Position numbers and translations under genes: made by a program
Assembly: GCA_026004615.1 (NCBI GenBank)
Contig: BPJM01000011.1
Location: 62,001 to 126,000, forward strand
DNA length: 64,000 nucleotides
Origin: Planctomycetota bacterium
Lineage (GTDB): Bacteria; Planctomycetota; J058; J103
Direction: 5' to 3'
Notes under the pieces: generated by a model
Seen by the model: the letters and a program-made list of their open reading frames with translations, nothing else
Told to the model about the DNA's origin: nothing
The model's database searches: none
In this document: in pieces, positions 16 through 28,535 of the stretch
How the letters are laid out: the number at the start of each line of letters is the position of its first letter
How positions within the stretch are numbered: the stretch's first letter is position 1

Positions 16-1257
16 TCACGGCCTTCCCTCCCCCCGGCTCGCTCCGCGTCCAGGAGCGCCCCCCCCGCCCGGCGAGCCCGCATCGCCCGCCGCGGGCGGC
101 CCCGCGGCTGCCGCCTGCACCCCGCCCAGCGGCAGCCGCAGCCGGAAGCGCGCTCCGCCGCCCGGCCGGTCCTCGGCGGTCAGCGAACCCCGGTGCTGCT
201 CGGCGATGGAACGCGCCAGCACCAGCCCGAGTCCGGTGCCGACCGGCTTGGTCGTGAACAGCGGTTCGAACAACCGCTGTTTCGCCTCCGCTGCCAGCCC
301 CGGCCCGTCGTCGTCCACCTCCAGCACCACCGCCCCGGGTTCCGCGCGCGTGCGTACCTGGACCCGCCCGCCCCGGGCGGCGACGGCCTCGAGCGCGTTG
401 CGCACCAGGTTGTCGATCACGCGCTCGATCAGCACCGGATCGAGCTCCAGCTGGGGCAGCCGCTCTGCGAGCTCCAGCACCAGCTCCACCCGCGGTCCAG
501 CTACCAGCTCCGAGCACGTCTCGCGCACCAGCTCGTTCAGCTCGGCGCGCACCAGGCGCGGCCGCCGCGAGCGGGCGAAATCCAGCAGCGCCGTCACGGC
601 GCGGTGCGCCCGGTGCACGTTGCGCTCGATCCGTTCCAGGTGGCGCGCCAGCGCGTCCGGTAGCGTCTCGCCCAGCAGCTCGCGCAGCGCAAAGGCGCTC
701 GAGGCGATCACGCCGAGGGGATTTTTCACCTCGTGGCTGATCGCGGCGCTCAGCTGGGCCAGCGCCGCCAGTTGCTCGCGCTCGCGCAGCGCCGCGGCAT
801 AGGCCTCGCGGTAGCTCTCCAGCATGATCGCCAGCTCGATGTCGCACACCTTGTCGATCGCCGCCACGCTCGCGGCGACGGCCTGCGCGCCCTGTGCGGC
901 CAGCCGCCGCCGCGCGCTCTCGGCGAGCCCCTGGCGCAGCACCCCCATCGCGAGCGCCATGTAGCGCGGCGGCATGCCGATCTCGACGTGCCGGCGGCCG
1001 ATCGCCGTGCGGCGCAGCAGGTACTGCTCATCGTGCGGGCCGCGCAGCAGCGTGCGCAGCCAGTCCGCCAGGCTGCGGCGCAGCCGGCCTACGCGCTGCT
1101 CGTCCCCGAGCAGCGCCGCCGCCTCGGGGTGGCGCCGGATGGTCTCGTAGAACCGCTCGACCAGAGGTTCGATATCGGGCTCGCAGTGCGGCGCCAAGGC
1201 GGCGAGCCGCGCTGCATCGCCCGGGCCGAAGCCGACGAAGCTCCTGAGCTCGTCCAT
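16..1257 (-). CDS. Globin-coupled sensor histidine kinase
   Basis: A soluble two-component sensor kinase of about 413 residues. Residues 1 to about 155 read as a protoglobin/globin-coupled sensor domain, with a candidate heme-ligating His at about residue 90 in the segment [14 protein letters not shown] short linker leads to a HisKA domain with the phosphoacceptor motif [10 protein letters not shown] (His about 175), then an HATPase with an N box (NLVRNALEA) and a G box (DDDGPGL). No membrane segments are visible, so it should be cytoplasmic and sense O2, NO or another heme ligand. A GTG four codons upstream (1269) is possible, but the ATG at 1257 has a purine-rich stretch before it. It diverges from the sigma-54 response regulator at 1471, which is its likely partner. 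The identity of the signal is inference. Confidence 0.85.
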
Positions 1258-1320
1258 GCGTCCCGCCACGGCGCCGCCGATCGTAGCGCGCGGGCTCGAG
1301 CCCCGCCACCGGCCACGCGC

Positions 1321-1431: not shown

Positions 1432-1442
1432 CTTGCTATGGT
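1432..1442 (+). promoter_or_regulatory. Candidate extended -10 promoter for the response regulator
   Basis: The string TTGCTATGGT fits an extended -10 (TGnTATGGT). Transcription would start near 1449, a short distance before the Shine-Dalgarno AGGAGG near 1457-1462 and the GTG start at 1471. No good -35 box is seen. This position also argues against the in-frame ATG at 1438, which overlaps the -10. Confidence 0.4.
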
Positions 1443-1470
1443 GGGCGCAGGCGGACAGGAGGCGAGGCGC

Positions 1471-3027
1471 GTGGGCGCGGAACGGGTGCTGGTCGTGGAG
1501 GATGAGGCGCTGCTGCTGCGCAGCATCGCCGATCAGCTGCGGGCCGAGGGCTACGAGGTCCAGACCGCCCCGGCGGCGCGCCACGCGCGCCAGGCGCTCG
1601 GGCGCCAGGAGTTCGACCTGGTGCTGCTCGACCAGCGGCTGCCCGACGGCAGCGGGCTCGATCTCATGCGCGAGATCCTCGAGCATGCGCCCGACACCCC
1701 CGTCATCCTCATGACCGCGTACTCCTCGGTCGAGAACGCGGTCGAGGCCATGCGGCAGGGGGCGTTCGACTACCTCAACAAGCCGTTCGATCTCGACGAG
1801 CTGGCGATCGTGGTCGGCAAGGCGCTGGAGACCACGCGGCTCAGGCGCGAGGTGCGGCTGTATACCGCGGTCCAGCGCGAACGCTTCGGGCTGCAGCGCA
1901 TCGTGGGCACCAGCCCTGCCATGCGCGAGCTGCTGCGCCAGGTGCGCCGCCTGATCCAGAGCGGCACCAGCACCATCCTGATCCGCGGCGAGTCCGGCAC
2001 CGGCAAGGACCTGCTCGCCAAGGCGATCCACCACGGAGCGGCGCGGCCTCGCGCAGCCCTTCGTCGAGGTCGACTGCGCGCGGCGATGCCCGAGAGCCTG
2101 CTGGAGAGCGAGCTGTTCGGCCACGAGCGGGGCGCCTTCACCGGCGCGCACGCGCGCAAGCCGGGTCTGCTCGAGGCGCTGGCGCCGGGGGCACGATCTT
2201 CCTGGACGAGATCGGGGAGATGAGCCTGCTGCACCCAGGCGAAGCTGCTCCGGGCCCTCGAGGAGCCGCAGGTTCAAGCGGGTGGGCGGCACCACCGACA
2301 TCGAGCTGAAGGCCCGCGTCGATCGCCGCCACCAACCGCGACCTGGCGCCCGGGAGGTGGCGCGAGGGCCGCTTCCGCAAGGATCTGTACTACCGCCTGA
2401 ACGTGATCCCGGTGCACGTCCCGCCGCTCCGCGCGAGCGCCGGGGGGACATCCCCCTGCTGGTGGAGCACTTCGTCCTCAAGCTCAGCCGGGACCTCGGC
2501 CGGGAGATCCAGGGGGTGAAGGAGCAGGCGATGGCCCGCGCTGGCAGGCCTACTCCTGGCCGGGGAACGTGCGGGAGCTGCGCAACGTGATCGAGAGGGC
2601 GATCATCCTCGGCAACGGCGAGACGCTGGGGCTCGGCGACCTGCCGCCGGAGATCCGCAGGGCGGCCGGGCGCGCCGGCACCGAGGTGCCGGCTGCCGCG
2701 CGCGCACCCGATGCGAGCGCCCCGGCGGCGGCGCCGGCCGCCGGGCTCGGCGCCGAGCCCGGCGGCACCGCGCTCGCGGCAGCGGGTGCGGCCCCCGCTG
2801 CCGCGCCCGATACGGCCGCGGCGGCCGGCGGCTTCGTATTGCCCGAACACGGAATCACCTGGGAGGAACTGGAGCGCTCGCTGGTAGTGCAGGCGCTGCA
2901 GCGCACCGGCGGCAACCAGAGCCGGGCGGCGCGGCTGCTGGGGCTGTCGCGCGACCAGCTGCGCTACCGGATGCAGCGCTTCGGGCTGTTGCCGCCGGCC
3001 GGCAGGCGGCCGCGCGCGGGCCGCTAG
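1471..3027 (+). CDS. Sigma-54-dependent response regulator (NtrC family), frameshifted
   Basis: An NtrC-type activator of about 515 residues once repaired. The receiver domain is intact (acidic pocket VVEDE, phospho-acceptor Asp in VLLDQRLP, then MTAYSS and NKPFD). The AAA+ domain shows Walker A GESGTGKD and the sigma-54 contact loop GAFTGA. The C-terminus carries a Fis-type helix-turn-helix ([20 protein letters not shown]) after an Ala/Pro-rich linker. The reading frame breaks many times between about 2030 and 2570 (at least six small indels), yet the conserved motifs [23 protein letters not shown] and RKDLYYRLN are all readable by switching frame. Either the local sequence quality is poor or the gene decayed very recently. 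GTG 1471 is chosen because AGGAGG sits eight bases before it. Likely partner of the divergent globin kinase and a candidate activator of the sigma-54 promoter at 6264. Confidence 0.85.
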
Positions 3028-4595: not shown

Positions 4596-6039
4596 TCAGA
4601 AGGCGAGGGCGAGTTCCACGTACAGCTGCGTCGCTGCCCCGGACGCCCCGGTGCGCTCGGCGAACGGCCCCGGCCAGAAGCGGCTGTAGACCAGGCGCGC
4701 CGGACCGAGCTGCACCGACAGATCCAGCTCGCAGCCGACCTGGCGGCCGGCGCGCCCGGTCGGATCGCGCCGCAGCGGGCGGCCCGCCGCGTCGTACCAC
4801 GCGTCGCGGCGGCGGGCGAGCCAGAACTGCCAGAACGCCGCCTTCACCCCGAGCGGCAACCGGTCGGGCAGCAGCGCCCGCCGCGCGCGCAGCGCCAGCC
4901 GCTCCCAGCGGCCCGCGGGCTCGGCAAGCGGCGCGTCGAAGAGCTCCCACTCCGCGAGCTGCAACGCCAGCTCGGCGCCCAGGTGGCTGGCGTTGCGCCA
5001 GCTCGCCAGGTCCATCTCGCCGTAGAACTTGTGGTTGGTGGGGAAGAAGTTGTCGAAGGTGTGGTGGCGCCCGTCCTGCGGATCGAGATCGCCGCTGCCG
5101 TAGTGGTACTCCAGGCCCAGGTGGGCGAGCGGCCGGAGCCAGGCCGGCGCGCGCCAGCGCGCCCGCACCGAGCCCGCCCCGGCGAGCAGCGGATCACGCC
5201 CGAACCGGCCGAGCTGCACCACGGCGTACAGATCGAGCTCGAGCGCCGGCACCGGCCGCCAGACCGCCCGCACCCCGGGGCTGTGTACCTGCAGCGGCGC
5301 GCGGCCGGGCCGCTCGCCCTCGACCTCCTGCTCGTGGTCGTACTTGAGCAGATAGAACGCCTCGAGCACCAGCTGCGATCGCGGCCGCACGGTCGCGTAC
5401 AACCCGTAGAAGTCCGCCTCCGAGCGCCGGTCGTGCCGCCGGAACCGCACCTCGCGCACCCACCAGGCCGATAGCGAGGCCGGACCGAGCTCGCTCAGCA
5501 CGCGCACCCCGTCGAAGGTGCGCGCGTCGTTGAGGTAGTCCAGCGGCCCGACCAGCTTCTCGTCGCCGAGCGCCAGCACCTGGCGGCCGGCGCGGACCGC
5601 GAGCGGCAAGGCGAACTGCTCGCTCCCCTTCGCCGCGCCCAGCTCGAGCCACCCCTCCCACACCCCGAGGTAGCGTCCCGCGCGCCGGCGCGGGATATCC
5701 GAGCCCCAGCTATCGGTGTAGCGGCCCGCCGCCCTGGCCGCGAGCAGCGGGTGCGGGCGCAGCTCGATCCCCAGCCGAGCTTCAGCTCGTGCAGCCGCTC
5801 CAGCTCCAGCGCGCTCGCGCCGAGCTCATCGAACTCCGCCGCCAGAGAAAGCGATAGCGCACCGGCGCGACGAACCACCCCTCGAGCAGCCGCTCGATCC
5901 ACCCCTGCGGTGGCGCACTGCTCGCGCGCGGCCCGCCCGCCTCACCGGAAGGGGCGGCGCCCGCCGCCGCCCCACGGCTCCACGCCAGCACCGCTGCGAG
6001 CACCAGCCACCGGCACCCCACCCACCCAGCTCCCCGCAT
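4596..6039 (-). CDS. Alginate-export-family outer-membrane beta-barrel protein, two frameshifts
   Basis: An outer-membrane porin-like protein of about 480 residues. A signal peptide (hydrophobic WLVLAAVLAW, then AAA) starts at ATG 6039. Alternating amphipathic strands follow, with the family signatures GRQVLALGDEKLVGPLDY, ARTFDGVRV and FPTNHKFYGEMD, ending in an aromatic-rich final strand (LYVELALAF). The frame is lost near 5850 and 5768. Each is repaired by adding one base to a T or G run, so I treat them as sequencing errors and the gene as intact. It is divergent from the NXR-like operon across a 276-bp regulatory gap. By context it could pass nitrite, nitrate or another small anion to the periplasmic enzyme, but substrate specificity is inference. 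Confidence 0.75.
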
Positions 6040-6119
6040 GTGGCGTCCTGCCTTGCCCCCGTCCCCCCGCCGTGGTTCCGGCGCTCCTTGCGGGGTGTTG
6101 CGGGATCGCACGCGGGCGG

Positions 6120-6156
6120 TGCGCGTTGACGCGCAGCGGTTGCGCGAGCTCGCGCA
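6120..6156 (+). promoter_or_regulatory. Twin palindromic enhancer-like sites upstream of the NXR-like operon
   Basis: Two perfect inverted repeats share the form TGCGCG-N4-CGCGCA, at 6120-6135 and 6141-6156. Their centres are exactly 21 bp apart, i.e. two helical turns. They lie about 140 and 160 bp upstream of the start predicted from the sigma-54 promoter at 6264. Position, symmetry and phasing match the paired upstream sites bound by NtrC-type activators. Which regulator binds is inference; the sigma-54 regulator encoded 3 kb away is the obvious candidate. Confidence 0.6.
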
Positions 6157-6263
6157 CACCGGCTGCGGCCGGTGCCGCCCGCGGCGATCGCGCCGGCGGC
6201 AAGCGCCCCCCTGCCGCCCGCGCGCCGCCCCCCGCGCGGGCGGAGCACCTGCAGTGCCGCACG

Positions 6264-6279
6264 TGGTCCTGCGGTTGCT
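6264..6279 (+). promoter_or_regulatory. Candidate sigma-54 (-24/-12) promoter of the NXR-like operon
   Basis: TGGTCCTGCGGTTGCT keeps the invariant GG and GC with exactly 10 bases between them, and the TTGCT of the -12 element. The -24 element matches TGG but not the following CA of the consensus TGGCAC. Transcription would start near 6289, leaving a 27-base leader with a GGGAGGGAG ribosome site before ATG 6316. Confidence 0.6.
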
Positions 6280-6315
6280 TATGCCCCCGCAGACCCGCCG
6301 ATCGGGGAGGGAGCC

Positions 6316-9300
6316 ATGGCCGAGCACCCGCGCCCATCTGCATCGCTGGACCCGGGGCAGTCTTCGCCGTCCGCGCTCCAGGGCAGCCGCCACAGCCGCC
6401 GCGCCTTCTTGCGCCTGCTGGCGCTAAGCGCAGGAGCGGGGGTGGTGGCGAGCGCGCTGCCGTCCTGGGGCTTTCAGTTCCTGGAGCCGCTGCAGGTGGG
6501 CAACCCCCTGCTCGCGTATCCGAACCGGGGCTGGGAGAACATCTACCGCGAGTTGTACCGCTACGATTCGACCTTCACCTTCACCTGCGCGCCCAACGAC
6601 ACCCACAACTGCCTGCTCCGCGCCTACGTGCGCAGCGGGGTGCTGGTGCGCATCGGCCCCACCTTCGGCTACGGCGAGGCGCGCGACCTGCAGGGCCGCC
6701 GCGCCTCGCACCGCTGGGACCCGCGCTGCTGCCAGAAGGGGCTGGCGCTGGTGCGCCGGTTCTACGGCGACCGGCGCTGCCGCTACCCCCTGGTGCGCCA
6801 GGGCTGGCTCGAGTGGGCGCGCGCGGGCTTTCCGCGCGAGCCCGAAACCGGGCTGCCGCCCGCGCAGTATCTGCGGCGCGGCCACGAGCCGTTCGTGCGC
6901 GTGAGCTGGCCCGAGGCGTTCGAGCTGGTCGCCCGGGGGCTCGTCGCCGTCGCCTCCGCCTACAACGGCGAGCAGGGCCGGCGCGGCTCGAGAGGCAGGG
7001 CTATCGATCCGGAGATGATCGCCGCCGCCCAGGGGGCCGGGGTCCGCACCATCAAGCTGCGGGGCGGCATGCCGCTGCTGGGCCTGAGCCGCATCTTCGC
7101 GCAGTACCGCTTCGCCAACATGCTGGCGCTGCTCGATGCGCACACGCGCCAGGTCGGCCCCGAGCAGGCGCTCGGCGCCACCGGCTGGGACAACTACTCC
7201 TGGCACACCGACCTGCCGCCGGGCCACCCCATGGTCACCGGCCAGCAGACCGTCGACTGGGACCTCTGTCTGGCCGAGCGCGCCCGGCTGCTGGTGGTCT
7301 GGGGGATGAACTGGATCACCACCAAGATGCCGGATGCGCACTGGCTCACCGAGGCGCGCCTCAAGGGCAGCGAGGTGATCGTGATCGCCGCCGAGTACTC
7401 GGCGACCATGAACAAGGCCGACCTGGCGCTGGTGGTCCGGCCCGGCACCACCCCGGCGCTGGCGCTGGGGCTGTGCCATGTGATCCTGAAGGAAGAGCTC
7501 TACGACGCCGACTACGTCAAGGCCTATACCGACCTGCCGTCGCTGGTGCGGCTGGATACCCTGGAGCGGCTGCGCGCCTCCGAGCTCGCGCCCGACAGCT
7601 TCGCCCCTGCGCAGGGCGGGCTTGGCCTCGAGCCCCAGGCGGCGCCGGGCCTGCCGGCCCAGCAGGCGGGCCTGCATGCGCCGGCGGCGCTCGCGCGCCA
7701 GCTCGAGCCGTTCGTGGTCTGGGACGCGGCCGCCGAGCGGCCGGCCGCCGTCGCGCGCGACGAGCTGGGAGCGCGCTGGCGCGCCCGCGGGGTCGATCCG
7801 GCGCTCGCGGGCACCTTCCGGGTCCGCCTCGCCACGGGCGAGGAGGGTCGAGTGCCGCCCGGTGTTCGATCTGATCCGGCAGTACGTCCTCGCGGACTTC
7901 GCCCCGGAGACGGTCTCCGAGATCACCTGGGCCCCCGCCGAGGGCGTCCGGACGATCGCGCGCAAGATCGCCGCCAACCCCGAGAAAACGCTGTTCGCGG
8001 TCGGCATGGGGCCCAACCAGTTCTTCAACAACGACCTCAAGGACCGCACGGTCTTTTTGCTCGCCGCGCTCACCCGCAACGTCGGTTTCGCCGGCGGCAA
8101 CGTCGGCTCGTATGCCGGCAACTACCGCGCGGCCTACTTCAACGGGCTCGGCCGCTACGTGATGGAGGATCCGTTCGCCCCGGCGCTCGCGCCCGACGCC
8201 CCGGTGCAGGTGCGGCCGCGCCTGCGCTTCGAATCCGTGCACTACTGGAACCACGGCGACAAGGTCCTGCGGGCGGGCGAGCAGTTGCTCACCGGCCGCA
8301 CCCACCTTCCGGTGCCGACCAAGGCGATCTGGGTGAGCAACTCCAACTCGCTGATCGGCAACGCCAAGGGCCACTACGAGACCGTGTTCAACACGCTCCG
8401 GCGCGTGGAGATGCTGGTGGTCAACGAGTGGTGGTGGACCGCCTCCTGCGAGTACGCCGACGTGGTGTTCCCGGTGGATTCGTGGGCCGAGTTCAAGCAT
8501 CCCGACGTGACCGCGAGCGTCACCAATCCGTTCCTGTCGGTCTTCCCGCGCACGCCGCTGGAGCGGATCCACGATACCCGTTCGGACATCGAGTGCAGCG
8601 CCGGGGTCGCGCAGGCGCTGGCGAAGCTGACCGGCGAGGAGCGGTTCGCGCAGTTCTGGAAGTTCGTGGACGAGGGGCGGGTGGATGTGTACCTGCAGCG
8701 CATCTTCGACGGCTCGCACATGACGGCGGGGATCGACGTGCTCGAGGCCGAGGCCGCGGCCCGGCGCGGGGTGCCGACGATCATCCAGTCGCGCACCTAC
8801 CCCAAGGCCGTCGGCTGGGAGCAGGCCTACGAGGACCGGCCGTGGTTCACCCGCACCGGGCGGCTGGAGCTGTACCGCGATGAGCCGGAGTTCCGCGACA
8901 GCGGCGAGAACCTGCCGGTGTACCGCGAGCCGGTGGACTCGACGTTCTACGAGCCGAACGCCATCGTGGCGAGCCCCCACCCGGCGATCCGGCCGCGCTC
9001 GCCCGAGCAGTATGGGCTGCGCGGGGCGGCGCTCGACGGCGAGAGCCGGCAGGCGCGCCACGTGGTCAAACCCTGGCGGGAGCTCGCGCGCAGCCGCCAC
9101 CCGCTCGCCGCCGCCGACCCGGCCTACCGCTTCGTCTTCCACACCCCGAAGTACCGGCACGGCGCGCACACCACCCCGGTCGACACCGACATCGTGGCGG
9201 TCTGGTTCGGCCCCTACGGCGACATGCTGCGCCACGATCCGCGCACCCCGTTCGTCACCGAGAGCTACATCGACGTCAACCCGGAGGACGCGCGCGAGCT

Positions 9301-9841
9301 GGGCTGCGAGGACGGCGACTACGTCTGGGTGGACGCCGATCCCGCCGACCGGCCGTTTCACGGCTGGCAGCAGCGGCCCGAGGAGTACAAGGTAGCGCGG
9401 CTGCTCTGCCGGCTGCGCTACTACCCGGGCACCCCGCGCGGCATCACCCGCATGTGGCACAACATGTACGGGGCCACGGTCGGCTCGGTGCGCGGCCACC
9501 AGACGCACCCGCACGGGCTCGCGCGCAATCCGGACACCGGCTACCAGGCGCTGTTCCGCTACGGCAGCCACCAGAGCTGCACGCGCGGCTACCTCAAGCC
9601 CACCCACATGACCGACTCGCTGGTGCGCAAGAACAACCTCGGACTCGTGCTGGGCAAGGGCTTCGAGGCGGACGTGCACTGTCCGACCGGAGCGCCGCGC
9701 GAGGCGTTCGTGCGGATCCGCCGCGCCGAGCCGGGCGGGCCCGGCGGCAAGGGGCTGTGGGGGCCTGCAGCTAGGGGCCTGACCCCGGGACACGAATCCG
9801 AGGCGATGCGGCGCTATCTGGAGGGCGGCTACGCGAGCTGA
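6316..9841 (+). CDS. Periplasmic nitrite oxidoreductase-like molybdopterin subunit alpha, one frameshift
   Basis: Catalytic subunit of a type II DMSO-reductase-family enzyme, about 1174 residues. The N-terminus has a Tat signal (SRRAFLRLL followed by a hydrophobic stretch ending SALPSW), so the enzyme is folded in the cytoplasm and exported. The Fe-S entry motif [12 protein letters not shown] and the segment [20 protein letters not shown] follow. Asp at about 299 there lines up with the Mo-coordinating Asp of NarG (CDLPPAS). By memory the whole chain resembles the periplasmic-clade NxrA of Nitrospira and anammox bacteria more than NarG, e.g. [20 protein letters not shown] and WNHGDK. The frame breaks at 7845-7847, where GGG should be GG; removing one G restores [12 protein letters not shown]. 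The physiological direction (nitrite oxidation or nitrate/other oxyanion reduction) cannot be read from sequence. Confidence 0.85.
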
Positions 9842-9888
9842 GGCGCCGCCGGCCCGGCGCGCGCACGAGCAGCGGAGGAAGCGGGACC

Positions 9889-11016
9889 ATGCCCACGGTG
9901 CAGAACTGGCAGCTCGGCCGGCCCATGGCATACCCCTACGAGGATGCCCGCCCGCAGCGCCAGATCGCCTATGTGTTCGACACCAACAAGTGCATCGCGT
10001 GCCAGACCTGCACCGTCGCCTGCAAGACGACCTGGACCAGCGGCAAGGGCCAGGAGCACATCTTCTACAACAACGTCGAGACCAAGCCGTACGGCTTCTA
10101 CCCGCAGGGCTGGGACGTCCAGACCCTGTCCCGGCTCGGCCCCGGTGGCTGGCAGGACATGAAGTGGGGCGGCAAGACGGTGTTCGAAGCCGCCCCCGCG
10201 GGCGAACGCGCGCTCGGCTACGAGCCGCGCGAGGAGGAGTACGCCTCGCCCAACCTGGGCGAGGATGTGTGCGCCGGCCGGATCGAGCGCGGCGCGTTCT
10301 TCCAGGGCATCCACCAGGCCTGGATGTTCTATCTGGCGCGGATCTGCAACCACTGCACGTATCCGGCCTGCCTGGCGGCCTGCCCCCGCAAGGCGATCTA
10401 CAAGCGGCCCGAGGACGGCATCGTGCTCGTGGACCAGTCGCGCTGCCGCGGCTATCGGGAGTGCGTCAAGGCCTGCCCGTACAAGAAGGTCTACTTCAAC
10501 ATGGTGACGCGGGTCTCCGAGAAGTGCATCGGCTGCTATCCGCTGATCGAGCGCGGCGAGCAGCCGCAGTGCGTGCAGACCTGCATCGGCAAGATCCGCC
10601 TGCAGGGATTCCTCAGCCGGCCGGGCGAGGAGCGGCCGGACAACCCGCTCGACTACCTGGTGCGCGTCCGCCGGGTGGCGCTGCCGCTGTACCCGCAGTT
10701 CGGCACCGAGCCGAACGTCTACTACATCCCGCCGGTGCACGTGCCGCGGCCGTTTCTGGTCCAGATGTTCGGGCCCGGGGTCGAGCAGGCCATCGCCACC
10801 TACCGCAGCGCTCCGAACGACCGGGAGCTGCTGGCGGCGCTGCTCATGTTCGGCAACACCCCGCGCATCCTGCACCGGTTCGCCGCCGAGCAAGACGGGG
10901 CGGTGGGCTACGACGGCGAGGGCAAGGAAGTGGTGCGCGTGCCGTATACCGAGCCGTTCTTCGCGCGCGAGCTGTTCGACCAGGAGCGGCAGGTCTACCG
11001 GCACAACGTGACCTGA
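9889..11016 (+). CDS. NXR-like iron-sulfur subunit beta
   Basis: Electron-transfer subunit of 375 residues with four cysteine clusters typical of NarH/NxrB/EbdB proteins: CIACQTCTVACKTTW, CNHCTYPACLAACPRKA, CRGYRECVKACPYKK and CIGCYPLIERGEQPQCVQTC. The first residue of the third block is followed by Gly-Tyr where NarH has Gly-Trp. It has no signal peptide of its own and would be exported with the alpha subunit through the Tat system. It begins 47 bp after alpha with GGAGG before the ATG. It passes electrons between the molybdenum subunit and the heme subunit. Confidence 0.88.
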   Translation: MPTVQNWQLGRPMAYPYEDARPQRQIAYVFDTNKCIACQTCTVACKTTWTSGKGQEHIFYNNVETKPYGFYPQGWDVQTLSRLGPGGWQDMKWGGKTVFEAAPAGERALGYEPREEEYASPNLGEDVCAGRIERGAFFQGIHQAWMFYLARICNHCTYPACLAACPRKAIYKRPEDGIVLVDQSRCRGYRECVKACPYKKVYFNMVTRVSEKCIGCYPLIERGEQPQCVQTCIGKIRLQGFLSRPGEERPDNPLDYLVRVRRVALPLYPQFGTEPNVYYIPPVHVPRPFLVQMFGPGVEQAIATYRSAPNDRELLAALLMFGNTPRILHRFAAEQDGAVGYDGEGKEVVRVPYTEPFFARELFDQERQVYRHNVT

Positions 11017-11058
11017 GCGGCGGCTCGTGCGCCGCGGGGCGGGACGGGGAGCGAAGTC

Positions 11059-12018
11059 ATGGGGCGAGCTCGGATCGGCTGGGCAGCGAACGGACGGGCG
11101 GCCAGCCGCGGCGCGGCGCTGGCCGTGCTCGTGGGGCTGGGGCTCGGGGCGTGCGGTCGTGAGGAGCCCCCCGCTGCGGCTCCCGCTGCGGGCGGGGGAG
11201 AGCAGCAGGCGGCGGCGGTGTCCTCGACCGAGCTGCGCGCGCTCGCGGTCGAGCGCGCGCCGCTCACCGATCCGGCCGATCCGCTCTGGGAGCGGGCACC
11301 GCGGCTGGTGGTGGCGCTGTTGCCGCAGCAGATCGCCTACCCGCGGCTGGCCGAGCCCTCGGTGAACCAGCTCGAGGCGCGGGCGCTGGCCGACCCGCAG
11401 TGGCTCTCCATCCGGCTGAGCTGGGCCGATCCGAGCCGCGACGACGTGCTGGCGACCGACCGCTACACCGACGCGGTGGCGGTCGAGCTGCCGCTCGGCG
11501 ATCCGGCGCGCACCAGCCCGTTCATGGGCTCGGCCGAGCACCCGGTCTACATCCTGCAGTGGAAGGCCGTCTGGCAGCGCGACCTGGAGCACGGCCGCGC
11601 GGATGTGCAGGACCTGCACCCGGGCTACTGGGCCGATCCGTATCCGTTCGTGACGGGCGGCCATCCCTATCCGGTGCTCGAGGCGTACCAGACCGCGGAT
11701 GCGCGGCGGTACCTGCCCGGGGTGACCGCGGGCAATCCGGCGAGCCGGCTGTACCGCCGCTGGCCGGTCGAGGAGCTGCATGCCGAGGGCTTCGGCTCGC
11801 TCGCCGCGCACCGCTTCCAGGACGCGCGCGGCGGCGGTGGCTGGGCCGAGGGGCGCTGGCGGGTGGTGCTGGCGCTGCCCCGGCACGTGCCGGACCGCGC
11901 CAATCCGACGCTGGGGCCGGGCGAGAGCGCGATCGCGTTCGCGCTCTGGGACGGCGCGCGCGCCAACGTGGGCGGGCGCAAGCACTACTTCCCGTTCGTC
12001 AAGCTGGTGCTGCCATGA
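11059..12018 (+). CDS. NXR/EbdC-like heme-b subunit gamma, lipoprotein
   Basis: A 319-residue protein of the ethylbenzene dehydrogenase gamma / type II DMSO reductase heme subunit family. A signal peptide ends in a lipobox (LGLGAC, Cys32), predicting anchoring by a lipid rather than free solubility, which is unusual for the family. Family segments include the early strand DPLWERAP, SPFMGSAEHPVYILQWK and a C-terminal GGRKHYFPFVKLVL. EbdC and DdhC bind heme b through one Met and one Lys. Met at about 156 (FMGS) and Lys at about 308 (GGRKHY) are my candidate ligands. Its stop overlaps the next start (ATGA). Confidence 0.8.
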   Translation: MGRARIGWAANGRAASRGAALAVLVGLGLGACGREEPPAAAPAAGGGEQQAAAVSSTELRALAVERAPLTDPADPLWERAPRLVVALLPQQIAYPRLAEPSVNQLEARALADPQWLSIRLSWADPSRDDVLATDRYTDAVAVELPLGDPARTSPFMGSAEHPVYILQWKAVWQRDLEHGRADVQDLHPGYWADPYPFVTGGHPYPVLEAYQTADARRYLPGVTAGNPASRLYRRWPVEELHAEGFGSLAAHRFQDARGGGGWAEGRWRVVLALPRHVPDRANPTLGPGESAIAFALWDGARANVGGRKHYFPFVKLVLP

Positions 12019-12725
12019 TGCCGCCGTTGGAGCGCGCCACGGGCTACGCGCTGCTCGGCCGCGCCTTCGCCTATCCGGATCCGGAGGTGCTCGTCGTGGA
12101 GCTCCAAGCGCTCGCGGGCGGCCCCCCCGCGCTCGCCCGGCTGGCCGCGGCGCTCGCCCCGCACCTGGAGCTCGGCGGCGGCGGGAGCTGGGCGCTCGAG
12201 GGCGAGTACAACCGGCTGTTCGCGACCGGGGTCGCGGTGAGTCCCTACGAGACCGCCTATCTGCGCGACGACCCGGGGCTGCGGCTCGGCCGGCTGGCGG
12301 CGCTGTACGAGGCGTTCGGCGCCCGCGCCGGCGGTCCGGCGCGCGAGCGGCCGGACCATATCGGCACCGAGCTGGAGTTCGCAGCGCTGCTCTGTCTCAA
12401 GGAGGCCCTGTTCGCCGAGCGTGCTGCCGGCCCGGAGCCCGCGCCCGAGGCCGCGCGCGCCCTCGCCGAGATCCGGCGCGCCCGCCGGCTGTTCGCCGAG
12501 GAGCACCTGGGGCGCTGGGCGAGCACCTTCGCGGCCCGCCTGGCCGCCGCCACCGAGCAGCCCTTCTGGCGCGTGCTGGCGGCGGAGCTGGCGCGCTGGG
12601 TCGAGCGCGACCTGCAGGAGCACCGCTGGCAACCGCTGCCCGCCCCGGCGCTGCCGCTCGAGCCCGCAGAACCGCTCGTTGTGCCGCTGCACTGCCCGCA
12701 CGCCCCGCCGCCCCCCGCCCCATGA
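12015..12725 (+). CDS. TorD/NarJ-like assembly chaperone of the NXR-like enzyme
   Basis: A 236-residue cytoplasmic chaperone, the delta protein of type II DMSO-reductase operons. It shows the helical TorD-family pattern, with YNRLFATG near residue 65, SPYETAYL, the acidic HIGTELEFAALLCLKEALF block and EEHLGRWASTFAARL. It would hold the alpha subunit for cofactor insertion before Tat export. Translationally coupled to gamma by a 4-bp overlap. The last 30 residues are Pro-rich and not conserved. Confidence 0.8.
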   Translation: MMPPLERATGYALLGRAFAYPDPEVLVVELQALAGGPPALARLAAALAPHLELGGGGSWALEGEYNRLFATGVAVSPYETAYLRDDPGLRLGRLAALYEAFGARAGGPARERPDHIGTELEFAALLCLKEALFAERAAGPEPAPEAARALAEIRRARRLFAEEHLGRWASTFAARLAAATEQPFWRVLAAELARWVERDLQEHRWQPLPAPALPLEPAEPLVVPLHCPHAPPPPAP

Positions 12726-24948: not shown

Positions 24949-26239
24949 TCAGCCCGCCTGCACCGCCGGCCGTGGGCCGCCAGGCGCCCCGGCCCGGCTG
25001 GCGGCGAAGCCCCAGACGATCGCGGCGAACTCGCGCATGAACCGCTCGGCCGAAAACCGCGCGCCCCTCTGCCGGAGCTGCTCTGAGAGCGCGCGCTGCA
25101 GCGGCTCGTCGCCCAGCACCCGCTCGATCTTGCCGACCGCATCGTCGATGTCGCGGTAGGCGAGCAGCGGCTGCTCGCCCACGATCTCCACCACCCCACC
25201 GCGTGCCGGCACGAAGCTCACGCACCCCGCCCCTCGCCAACTCCCCCACCGCGATCCCGAACGGTTCGTCGTCGCGCGCGTGGATGCCGAAGCGCTGCCG
25301 CCCGAGCAGCTCCCACTTCGCCGCGCCCACCAGTTCGCCGTGCACGACCACCCAGTCGCGCTCCCGCTCGCACAGCCGCCGGATCGCGCGCCCGTACGGG
25401 GTCTCGACCATCTTGCCCACCAGGTGGAGCCGCACCCGGTGGCCGCGCGCGCGCAGCCTCCGTACGATCTCGATCGCGCGCTCGAGCCTCTTTTCGGGCG
25501 AGATGCGCCCCAGACACACCAGGCCCGGCTCGCGCGCATGCCAGGGCAGCGGCTCCACCAGCGGCGCGCCGACCGGCGGGTAGAGCACCGGCAGCTCTTC
25601 GAGCCCGAACCGCCGCCGCAGCAGCTCTGCCGTATACTCCGAGTTCGCCACCAGCAGACCCGTCTCCGCAGGCGAGCGCGCCGGGGGCAAGCCCGCCAGC
25701 ACCCGGCAGGCCGCCAGATAGGCGCTCTGGAGCCACCGGGGCCGCCCGGGCCGCGAGCCGGCCAGGCGTTGCAGCTCCCAATCCCAACTGAAATCCGCGA
25801 TGCAATGGACCGCCGGCAGCCCGAAGTCCATCCAGTTGTACGCGCTCACGTGCACGTCGAACCGCGGTGCGAGCCGCCGGCAGTGCCGCTCGAACAGGGC
25901 CCGCCACAAGAACCCCGCGCGACGAAACAGCACCGCGGGCACCGAGCCGTTGCAGACGCCGAGGCCCCGCTCTGCGAGCGCGGTGCCATAGAAGGCGTCG
26001 CAGGCGGCGAGCTCCACCCACCGCGGCGCGAGCAGCGCCACCCGGCAGCCGTCCACCAGCGCCTGCGCCGCCCAGAGCGTCGTTGCCTCGGCTCCGCCGA
26101 GGCCGCGGTTGGGATTGGCGATCACGACCCGCCGCGGCACCTGCCTGCGCCCGCTCGCCCCGGCCGGCGCCGGCCCCGGCGCGCGAAACCTCGCCGGAGC
26201 CGCGCCGCGCCCGCCACCCGCGAACCCCGCTCCCGACAT
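24949..26239 (-). CDS. Glycosyltransferase copy A (GT4-like), one frameshift
   Basis: About 429 residues after correction. N-terminal RRVVIANPNRGLGGAEATTL holds the GGAE acceptor loop. A long conserved middle, then LVCLGRISPEKRLERAIEIV and the EX7E donor motif in DEPFGIAVGE complete the GT4 pattern. The frame breaks near 25228 through one extra base relative to copy B (27255-28535), which is otherwise almost identical over most of its length. Repair gives the C-terminus ending GPRPAVQAG. The frameshift may be real or a sequence error; a second intact copy would tolerate loss. Confidence 0.75.
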
Positions 26240-26247
26240 GCCAGCCC

Positions 26248-27063
26248 TCACCGGTAGGTGCGCAGGCCCAGCAGCTCCAGGCCTGCGTGCCACACAAAGC
26301 GCGGTCCCTGCCACAACGCGCGCCGCCACAGCTTGCGCGGCTCGAACACCAGCCGCCACAGCCACTCCAGCCCCAGCTCGCCCACCCACCGCGGCGCCCG
26401 CCGCAGCTGGCCGCCGACGAACCGAAAGGCCGCTCCCACCCCGATCGCCACCGGCACCTGGAGCCGCTCGCGCCGCTCGTGGATCCAGCGGTCCTGCTTG
26501 GGGGTACCGAGCCCCACCCACAGCACGTCCGGGCGCGCCCGCGCGATCGCGGCCAGCACCTGCTCCTCCTCGGCGGGACGCAGCGGCCGGAACGGCGGCG
26601 ACAGCACGCCCGCCACACGGTGGCCCGGATAGCGCCGCTCCAGCACCCGGCGGACCGCCGCCAGGGTGTCCTCCGTATCCCCGAGCAGAAAACTCCGGTA
26701 GCCGCGGCGGTGCGCCAGCGCGCAGAACGCCCGCATGAGCTCGGCCCCAGGCACCCGCCGCGCGGTGCGAATCCCCCGCAGCCGCGCGATCAACACCGGC
26801 GCGATGCCGTCCGGAAGCCACAGCTCCGCGCCGTTGAGGACCCGCTTGAGCTGCGGATCGCAGTGCGCCTCCCAAAGACCATGAAACCCGGTCACCACCA
26901 CCTGGCGGCACGGCATGCCGGGTTGCCAGGTGGTGATCCAGCGCTCCAGGATCTCGACCGCCTGCCGCAGCGTGGGCAGGTGCACCCGGCTGCCGAGCAC
27001 CTGGACGCTCGGCAGTCCGGCCACGCCCCCGGGTGCCCCTGGTCCGCTCACCGGCAACACCAT
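26248..27063 (-). CDS. WecG/TagA/CpsF-family glycosyltransferase
   Basis: 271 residues of the GT26 family that adds a second sugar to a lipid-linked first sugar on the cytoplasmic face. Signatures are VVVTGFHGLWEA, the conserved ELWLPDGIAPVLIARLRG, VPGAELMRAFC, FLLGDTEDTLAAV and VGLGTPKQDRWIHE. Fits a pathway initiated by the WecA-type transferase at 29798. A decayed copy of its 3' end lies at 28545-28750. Confidence 0.88.
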   Translation of the reverse strand: MVLPVSGPGAPGGVAGLPSVQVLGSRVHLPTLRQAVEILERWITTWQPGMPCRQVVVTGFHGLWEAHCDPQLKRVLNGAELWLPDGIAPVLIARLRGIRTARRVPGAELMRAFCALAHRRGYRSFLLGDTEDTLAAVRRVLERRYPGHRVAGVLSPPFRPLRPAEEEQVLAAIARARPDVLWVGLGTPKQDRWIHERRERLQVPVAIGVGAAFRFVGGQLRRAPRWVGELGLEWLWRLVFEPRKLWRRALWQGPRFVWHAGLELLGLRTYR

Positions 27064-27189
27064 GACGGGGCACTGCTGCGGCTATAGCCGCGAGCAGCTC
27101 TTCTCGACCCTCCGGCGCCAGGGCAACGCGCCCCTTGCGGCCAGCAAGAGCGCCGAGAAGGCCAAAGATCGCTCCTGCCGCCCCGCTCG

Positions 27190-27242
27190 CCGGGAAGGCA
27201 GGCCTCCTGCAGGCTCACCAGCACCGCCCGCGGCGCCCGCAC
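27190..27242 (-). pseudogene. 5' fragment of the GT4 gene at 24936
   Basis: Starting at 27242, the sequence encodes MRAPRAVLVSLQEA, matching MRAPRAVLVSLYEA at the start of the intact gene. Similarity fades after 50-60 bp, and the frame runs on as meaningless sequence. It sits directly after copy B of the duplicated transferase, as the intact gene sits after copy A, so it was carried along in the duplication. Bases 27064-27189 between it and wecG hold nothing recognisable. Confidence 0.7.
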
Positions 27243-27254
27243 CGCACGCGCACC

Positions 27255-28535
27255 TCAGCCCGCCTGCACCGCCGGCCGTGGGCCGCCAGGCGCCCCGGCC
27301 CGGCTGGCGGCGAAGCCCCAGACGATCGCGGCGAACTCGCGCATGAACCGCTCGGCCGAAAACCGCGCGCCCCTCTGCCGGAGCTGCTGCGAGAGCGCGC
27401 GTTGCAGCGGCTCGTCGCCCAGCACCCGCTCGATCTTGCCGACCGCATCGTCGATGTCGCGGTAGGCGAGCAGCGGCTGCTCGCCCACGATCTCCACCAC
27501 CCCACCGCGTGCCGGCACGAAGCTCACGCACCCCGCCTTCGCCAGCTCCCCCACCGCGATCCCGAACGTTTCGATCTCGCACGCGTGGATGCCGAAGCGC
27601 TGCCGCCCGAGCAGCTCCCACTTCGCCGCGCCCACCAGTTCGCCGTGCACGACCACCCAGTCGCGCTCCCGCTCGCACAGCCGCCGGATCGCGCGCCCGT
27701 ACGGGGTGTCGACCATCTTGCCCACCAGGTGGAGCCGCACCCGGTGGCCGCGCGCGCGCAGCCGCCGTACGATCTCGATCGCGCGCTCGAGCCTCTTTTC
27801 GGGCGAGATGCGCCCCAGACACACCAGGCCCGGCTCGCGCGCATGCCAGGGCAGCGGCTCCACCAGCGGCGCGCCGACCGGCGGGTAGAGCACCGGCAGC
27901 TCTTCGAGCCCGAACCGCCGCCGCAGCAGCTCTGCCGTATACTCCGAGTTCGCCACCAGCAGACCCGTCTCCGCAGGCGAGCGCGCCGGGGGCAAGCCCG
28001 CCAGCACCCGGCAGGCCGCCAGATAGGCGCTCTGGAGCCACCGGGGCCGCCCGGGCCGCGAGCCGGCCAGGCGTTGCAGCTCCCAATCCCAACTGAAATC
28101 CGCGATGCAATGGACCGCCGGCAGCCCGAAGTCCATCCAGTTGTACGCGCTCACGTGCACGTCGAACCGCGGTGCGAGCCGCCGGCAGTGCCGCTCGAAC
28201 AGGGCCAGCCGCAGGAACCCCGCGCGACGAAACAGCACCGCGGGCACCGAGCCGTTGCAGACGCCGAGGCCCCGCTCTGCGAGCGCGGTGCCATAGAAGG
28301 CGTCGCAGGCGGCGAGCTCCACCCACCGCGGCGCGAGCAGCGCCACCCGGCAGCCGTCCACCAGCGCCTGCGCGGCCCACAACGCTCGCGCCTCCGAACC
28401 ACCGCGGCCCATGTAGCTGTGGGCGATCGCCACCCGCGGCGGCGCCTGCCTGGGCCCGCCCGGCGCCGGCGCCGGCGCGCGAAACCTCGCCGGCGCCGCG
28501 CCGCACTCGCCACCCGCGAACCGCGCTCCCGTCAT
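27255..28535 (-). CDS. Glycosyltransferase copy B (GT4-like), intact
   Basis: 426 residues and an intact frame. It is nearly identical to copy A from about residue 55 (LWAAQALVDGCRVALLAPRW) to the C-terminus. The acceptor-loop region differs: VAIAHSYMGRGGSEARA here against VVIANPNRGLGGAEATT in copy A. The donor motif reads EIETFGIAVGE against DDEPFGIAVGE. Both keep EX7E. The focused differences suggest changed substrate use after duplication; specificity is unknown. Confidence 0.82.
   Translation of the reverse strand: MTGARFAGGECGAAPARFRAPAPAPGGPRQAPPRVAIAHSYMGRGGSEARALWAAQALVDGCRVALLAPRWVELAACDAFYGTALAERGLGVCNGSVPAVLFRRAGFLRLALFERHCRRLAPRFDVHVSAYNWMDFGLPAVHCIADFSWDWELQRLAGSRPGRPRWLQSAYLAACRVLAGLPPARSPAETGLLVANSEYTAELLRRRFGLEELPVLYPPVGAPLVEPLPWHAREPGLVCLGRISPEKRLERAIEIVRRLRARGHRVRLHLVGKMVDTPYGRAIRRLCERERDWVVVHGELVGAAKWELLGRQRFGIHACEIETFGIAVGELAKAGCVSFVPARGGVVEIVGEQPLLAYRDIDDAVGKIERVLGDEPLQRALSQQLRQRGARFSAERFMREFAAIVWGFAASRAGAPGGPRPAVQAG

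Follow-up and report, generated by a model that had tools for sequence, protein, structure and literature searches.

A non-random twin palindrome and a −24/−12 element as the likely sigma-54 enhancer-promoter of an NXR-like operon beside an Nmp-like gas-sensing gene set

The window analysed here, a 64-kb stretch of DNA with 74% GC, carries an NXR-like operon and, divergent from it, an outer-membrane porin gene (Table 1). The catalytic subunit finds its best PDB match in NXR-A (7b04; 414 bits over the N-terminal half, 486 residues), and the presence of type II DMSO reductase A, B and C subunits, nearest to NXR-A, places the operon among those of the NXR type. Subunits A, B and C and the chaperone are held in common with nitrite oxidoreductase (subunit A, PDB 7b04); unlike that enzyme, the present one lies in a neighbourhood of denitrification and gas sensing and may work in either direction. 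The nearest proteins to the NxrA-like subunit, at 69-74% identity, come from genomes labelled Myxococcales, Polyangiaceae or 'Deltaproteobacteria', whereas identity to the proteins sampled from its own phylum does not exceed 62%, suggesting that positions 6316-12018 were acquired by horizontal transfer. Elsewhere in the window, two pairs of identical motif matches within 25440-28160 (25440/27745 and 25839/28144), each with an offset of 2305 bp, suggest that roughly 2.3 kb has been duplicated in tandem.

The original prediction had also placed a sigma-54 activator gene near this operon, and such a gene was recovered, divergent from a globin-coupled histidine kinase whose globin domain matches AfGcHK (5ohe) and retains the heme-ligand histidine. 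A receiver-kinase gene, clade II nosZ and nosD follow just outside the window, the nosZ product scoring 847 bits (cut-off 625). About six frame breaks interrupt the stretch from 2.18 to 7.85 kb: three in the activator (~2185, 2430 and 2540) and others in a tryptophanase-like gene, the porin and nxrA. They are not accompanied by obvious nonsense substitutions, at least two fall in G runs, and in the same neighbourhood nosZ and nosD, the two kinase genes, nxrB and nxrC are unbroken. The breaks are probably long-read sequencing indels, local decay being less likely. Because the control region lies within this stretch, single-base errors in its spacings are possible.

Table 1. Positions of genes and control elements in the window (or in the named locus)
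Feature	Position	Strand	Description
Globin-coupled histidine kinase (NmpU/AfGcHK-like)	16..1269	-	PF11563, HisKA, HATPase_c; divergent from activator
Enhancer-binding protein, Nmp-like activator	~1438..3027	+	receiver + sigma-54 AAA + Fis-type HTH; PF00072, PF00158, PF25601, PF02954 across frame breaks
Outer-membrane porin (Alginate_exp), divergent	4596..6039	-	PF13372; start codon read from sequence; frame break near 5800
Distal palindrome TGCGCGTTGACGCGCA	6120..6135	.	exact TGCGCG-N4-CGCGCA; centre 6127.5, -162.5 from predicted start
Perfect NmpR consensus GCGCA-N5-TGCGC	6131..6145	.	straddles both palindromes, alternative register
Proximal palindrome TGCGCGAGCTCGCGCA	6141..6156	.	exact TGCGCG-N4-CGCGCA; centre 6148.5, -141.5
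-24/-12 sigma-54 promoter-like element TGGTCCTGCGGTTGCT	6264..6279	+	GG-N10-GC spacing; 9/12 defined positions of TGGCACG-N4-TTGCW
Predicted transcription start	6290	+	from C6278 taken as -12
nxrA-like catalytic subunit	6316..9841	+	Tat signal, DMSO reductase type II; TIGR03479; single-base frameshift near 7840
nxrB-like iron-sulfur subunit	9889..11016	+	TIGR03478
nxrC-like heme b subunit	11059..12018	+	TIGR03477
Type II enzyme chaperone (nitrate reductase delta family)	12000..12722	+	PF02613, TIGR03482
Clade II nosZ + nosD	L156 2637-6720		same direction, directly past both kinases, just upstream of window
Receiver-kinase (NmpS-like)	L156 6796-8847		Response_reg-HisKA-HATPase; just upstream of window, in the kinase's direction
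NorR + moaA beside NXR-like operon	L036 4903-8000; L038 3834-7330		GT-N7-AC twin, strong sigma-54 promoter
Near-consensus sigma-54 promoters upstream of NXR-like operons	L037 7670; L043 685		L043 site precedes cytochrome c gene

The intergenic region between the porin start (6039) and the nxrA-like start (6316) contains the two palindromes, both exact copies of TGCGCG-N4-CGCGCA as predicted. Their centres are separated by 21 bp, which bears out the proposed phasing of two helical turns, and the half-sites at 6120, 6131, 6141 and 6152 advance in 10-11-bp steps, all on one DNA face.

We evaluated these motifs by pattern searches and local simulations, and the twin site is non-random. When the intergenic stretch is simulated with its dinucleotide content preserved, a pair of palindromes with identical 6-bp arms no more than 60 bp apart arises at P ~0.0017, or ~0.0003 if helical phasing is included; the pair at 6120-6156 is the only such pair anywhere in the 64-kb window. 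The exact single motif occurs 15 times in the 3.87-Mb genome, versus 4 for a control pattern, and the exact pair once. The scan for paired sites proposed with the original prediction revealed no second exact pair among 392 genomes of the phylum. Degenerate twins with two or three mismatches were set aside, their frequency in those 392 genomes being about that of the control, i.e. chance level. The other single genomic copies were likewise rejected as regulon members: those examined fall within long open reading frames and have no convincing sigma-54 site; a sigma-54-like box lies downstream of a single one, which is itself intragenic.

A chance match favoured by high GC content, or an artefact of assembling a stretch rich in indels, could be argued from the abundance of palindromes with one or two mismatches in the window (79 found, 56 expected) and from the frame breaks described above. 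Such an origin is highly improbable in our estimation, given the rarity and uniqueness of the exact twin and a position that agrees with that in relatives to within 2 bp (see below).

The twin is enclosed, together with a third hairpin, by an outer inverted repeat, GATCGC(A)CGCGGGCGG / CCGCCCGCGGCGATC, and the whole of 6104-6191 can be drawn as a multi-stem junction whose stems follow one another without an unpaired base (fold z = -3.2). This gapless arrangement is what a structured RNA or DNA element, such as a leader hairpin or a cruciform, would display, but a GC content of 79% favours stems anyway, no Rfam family matched, and the feature found again in relatives is the twin-site geometry alone. 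Copies elsewhere in the genome amount to short GC-rich matches, which speaks against a structured element and also led us to discard a repeat-element origin of the region. We accordingly assign a structured element very little likelihood.

Downstream of the palindromes, the -24/-12 element shows the GG-10-GC spacing that had been predicted and ranks fifth among 127,970 window positions under an approximate sigma-54 weight matrix based on the consensus. The box is weak and not significant by itself, a comparable match being expected in 5-8% of comparable stretches (P 0.05-0.08). The supposition that the elements are rarer than base composition predicts thus holds for the twin but not for the promoter box alone. 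With C6278 as -12, transcription would start near 6290, producing a 26-nt leader that carries GGGGAGGGAG at 6304-6313 before the ATG at 6316. The palindromes would then be tandem dyads on one DNA face within the range of roughly 80-200 bp upstream that defines sigma-54 enhancers. The earlier figure of about 130 bp upstream corresponds approximately to the interval between the sites and the -24 box; measured from the palindrome centres to the predicted start, the distances are about 162 and 142 bp. The genome encodes RpoN (Sigma54_DBD, 215 bits; open frame of 684 aa), and a search for a sigma-70-like promoter or a terminator detected neither. Elsewhere in the same genome, a perfect TGGCACGGCGATTGCA precedes a dnaK-like start by 94 bp (C4:375733), raising the possibility of sigma-54 control of dnaK, and CGGCACGTGGCTTGCT lies ahead of a universal-stress-protein-like gene (C11:42492) about 20 kb from the kinase genes.

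Comparison with two Myxococcales relatives that carry NXR-like operons (L036 and L038) revealed the same geometry built from a different operator. Both possess a twin CGTTGT-N7-ACAACG with sites exactly 21 bp apart, at -161/-140 in L036 and -163/-142 in L038, against -162.5/-141.5 in the window. The first palindrome centre lies 135 bp (L036) and 137 bp (L038) from a downstream TGGCAATGATCTTGCA that is identical in the two loci, compared with 136.5 bp to the window element. Alignment of L036 with L038 showed that the palindrome arms and the promoter are conserved, whereas the central bases and the spacer and flanking sequences have diverged. A twin of the GT-N7-AC type occurs once per genome in both; among 284 genomes of the phylum of L035 it was found in the L036 genome only, apart from one match at control level. 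In each locus a NorR gene adjoins the operon (687 bits in L036 and 678 bits in L038; cut-off 476), with moaA also upstream. The core recognised by NorR is GT-N7-AC, arranged in tandem before sigma-54 promoters (PMC1274295). The shared geometry, combined with an operator that matches the adjacent NorR, makes this a recognisable sigma-54 enhancer of the same operon in relatives, and control of the NXR-like enzyme by NO is predicted for L036 and L038.

Sigma-54-like sites are more generally enriched upstream of nxrA in the Myxococcota-type group, with 16.2 bits in L037 and L043 and 13.7 in L036 and L038; of the control segments, 0.1% score as high as 16 and 1.3% as high as 13. None of the other NXR-like loci examined has conserved the window operator. 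As a separate observation, L038 has a cytochrome c gene ahead of nxrA, which L036 seems to have lost.

These relatives also bear on whether an ordinary dimeric regulator, perhaps of the divergent porin, might use the palindromes as its operator, which would then not be a sigma-54 enhancer. Such an operator would fit both the weakness of the -24/-12 box and the location of the sites, 81-118 bp upstream from where the porin gene starts. However, the 21-bp twin and its distance to a conserved sigma-54 box recur in L036 and L038, where no Alginate_exp-like porin was detected beside nxr, and the failure to find a sigma-70-like promoter points the same way. We consider a porin operator decidedly improbable.

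We therefore favour the reading of 6120-6279 as a sigma-54 enhancer-promoter of the NXR-like operon, as originally predicted, because the twin is non-random, RpoN and an adjacent activator are present and the geometry recurs in two relatives. Its strongest support is comparative: L036 and L038 combine this geometry with another operator, one that matches another adjacent activator. For this enhancer-promoter driven by the neighbouring Nmp-like gas-sensing relay, we estimate a probability of about 0.6.

The system most similar to the neighbouring gene set is the NmpRSTU oxygen relay of Myxococcus xanthus (PMC11841059, PMC6211767). In both, a protoglobin kinase, a receiver-kinase and an NtrC-like activator are neighbours, and the three proteins here are counterparts of NmpU, NmpS and NmpR. 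NmpR binds GCGCA-N5-TGCGC upstream of sigma-54 promoters, its target mxan_4236 being induced under hypoxia; its sites normally come in twos with a gap of 14-15 nt, or of 5 or 24 nt in two promoters (PMC11841059). Sigma-54, multiple dyad sites and a perfect GCGCA-N5-TGCGC are likewise common to both systems, and the copy in the window operator is the sole exact one in 64 kb. Unlike the Myxococcus arrangement, the window has one perfect site with two outer half-sites, its palindromes are 21 bp apart, a second GCGCA-N5-TGCGC at the usual 14-15-nt gap is absent from the operator, and the target is an NXR-like operon next to nosZ. No NmpT (double-receiver protein) was found between kinase and receiver-kinase. 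Moreover, the recognition helix of the window activator (10 residues) differs from the RKIQY type of the Myxococcota clusters carrying NmpR motifs. In view of the single full site, the different helix and the lack of an NmpT between the kinases, we liken the activator to the Nmp relay without classing it as NmpR. Since the half-sites lie 10-11 bp apart on one face, either register, or both, could be occupied, and the central GCGCA-N5-TGCGC may replace or supplement the two palindromes as the bound register.

Kinase-activator clusters of the window type were found again in other genomes, and the window's helix type also occurs next to other globin kinases. A shared operator at clusters with this helix type was sought and rejected, no comparable palindrome being found; the L220 and L221 clusters, in particular, have none in common. 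Strong sigma-54 promoters are nevertheless seen in these two loci, before a CBS-domain-like gene (L220 3786), a stress-protein-like gene (L220 9991, minus strand) and the activator gene (L221 9028). In six other loci (L255, L260, L265, L269, L274 and L217), paired sites of the GCGCA-N5-TGCGC type accompany globin-kinase/activator clusters with a period of 29-32 bp (41 in L217), and the Nmp regulon is apparently widespread. An NmpR-like motif as a common NXR operator was rejected, none being present upstream of 70 other NXR-like operons.

An enhancer that is real but bound by an activator encoded elsewhere, with the neighbour controlling other genes such as nos, must also be weighed. About 11 other intact sigma-54 activators are encoded in the genome, the neighbouring activator gene is frame-broken, and its helix belongs not to the NmpR type but to a subclass with no recognised common operator. 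Against this, NorR adjoins its target in L036 and L038, providing a precedent for adjacency, and the operator contains a perfect NmpR consensus beside an Nmp-like gene set. On this evidence we judge an activator from elsewhere to be unlikely.

The NtrC/glnA enhancer has the core TGCACC-N5-GGTGCA. Tandem TGC..GCA dyads before a sigma-54 promoter and a receiver-AAA-Fis HTH activator are common to that system and the window, which differs in its TGCGCG core with N4 spacing and in a kinase that is a heme globin sensor. The prediction of an NtrC-type system is supported for the enhancer and promoter layout; the activator stands closer to the Myxococcus Nmp oxygen relay than to NtrC. The NorR/norVW nitric-oxide system also combines tandem dyads before a sigma-54 promoter with an adjacent activator, and the NorR-associated NXR-like operons of L036 and L038 have a geometry near-identical to that of the window. 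Here, in contrast to NorR, the activator has a receiver in place of GAF and the operator consists of TGCGCG dyads, not GT-N7-AC. The E. coli system has three NorR sites, all essential at norVW (PMC2941729), against the twin found here.

We infer which protein binds, where transcription starts, and the signal and its sign. In the proposed mechanism, dimers of an NtrC-class enhancer-binding protein would occupy the tandem site, at about 162 and 142 bp before the start, and oligomerise; the intervening DNA would loop toward the promoter, and the AAA ring would remodel RNA polymerase-sigma-54 at 6264-6279, with transcription from near 6290. The leading candidate for this activator is the neighbouring receiver-AAA-HTH protein, which would take its signal from the globin-coupled kinase and receiver-kinase next to it, as in NmpU-NmpS-NmpR. 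The M. xanthus relay is on at low oxygen (PMC11841059), and by analogy low oxygen, or a gas signal related to it, would probably induce the operon.

The nos genes, together with NorR at homologous operons, suggest a role in anaerobic nitrogen-oxide metabolism, in which the enzyme may work in the direction of nitrate reduction. A wider generalisation is tentative and leans toward doubtful: NXR-like enzymes of the Myxococcota-type clade may stand under unrelated gas-sensing sigma-54 activators (NorR, or an Nmp-like globin relay) that share one enhancer geometry, and may be induced by NO or low oxygen, with nitrate reduction in anaerobic respiration, and not nitrite oxidation, as their main role. 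Gas-sensing sigma-54 control is itself already known; what is new is the target and the operator arrangement. Little is known of how NXR-type operons are switched on, and a full-text search for NXR with sigma-54 returned just one paper, on genome mining and unrelated. The inducing gas bears on nitrite oxidation versus nitrate reduction, a choice that metagenomes repeatedly leave ambiguous. The use of the same 21-bp geometry near -160/-140 by two activator families at homologous operons would provide a test of operator replacement with the enhancer architecture kept.
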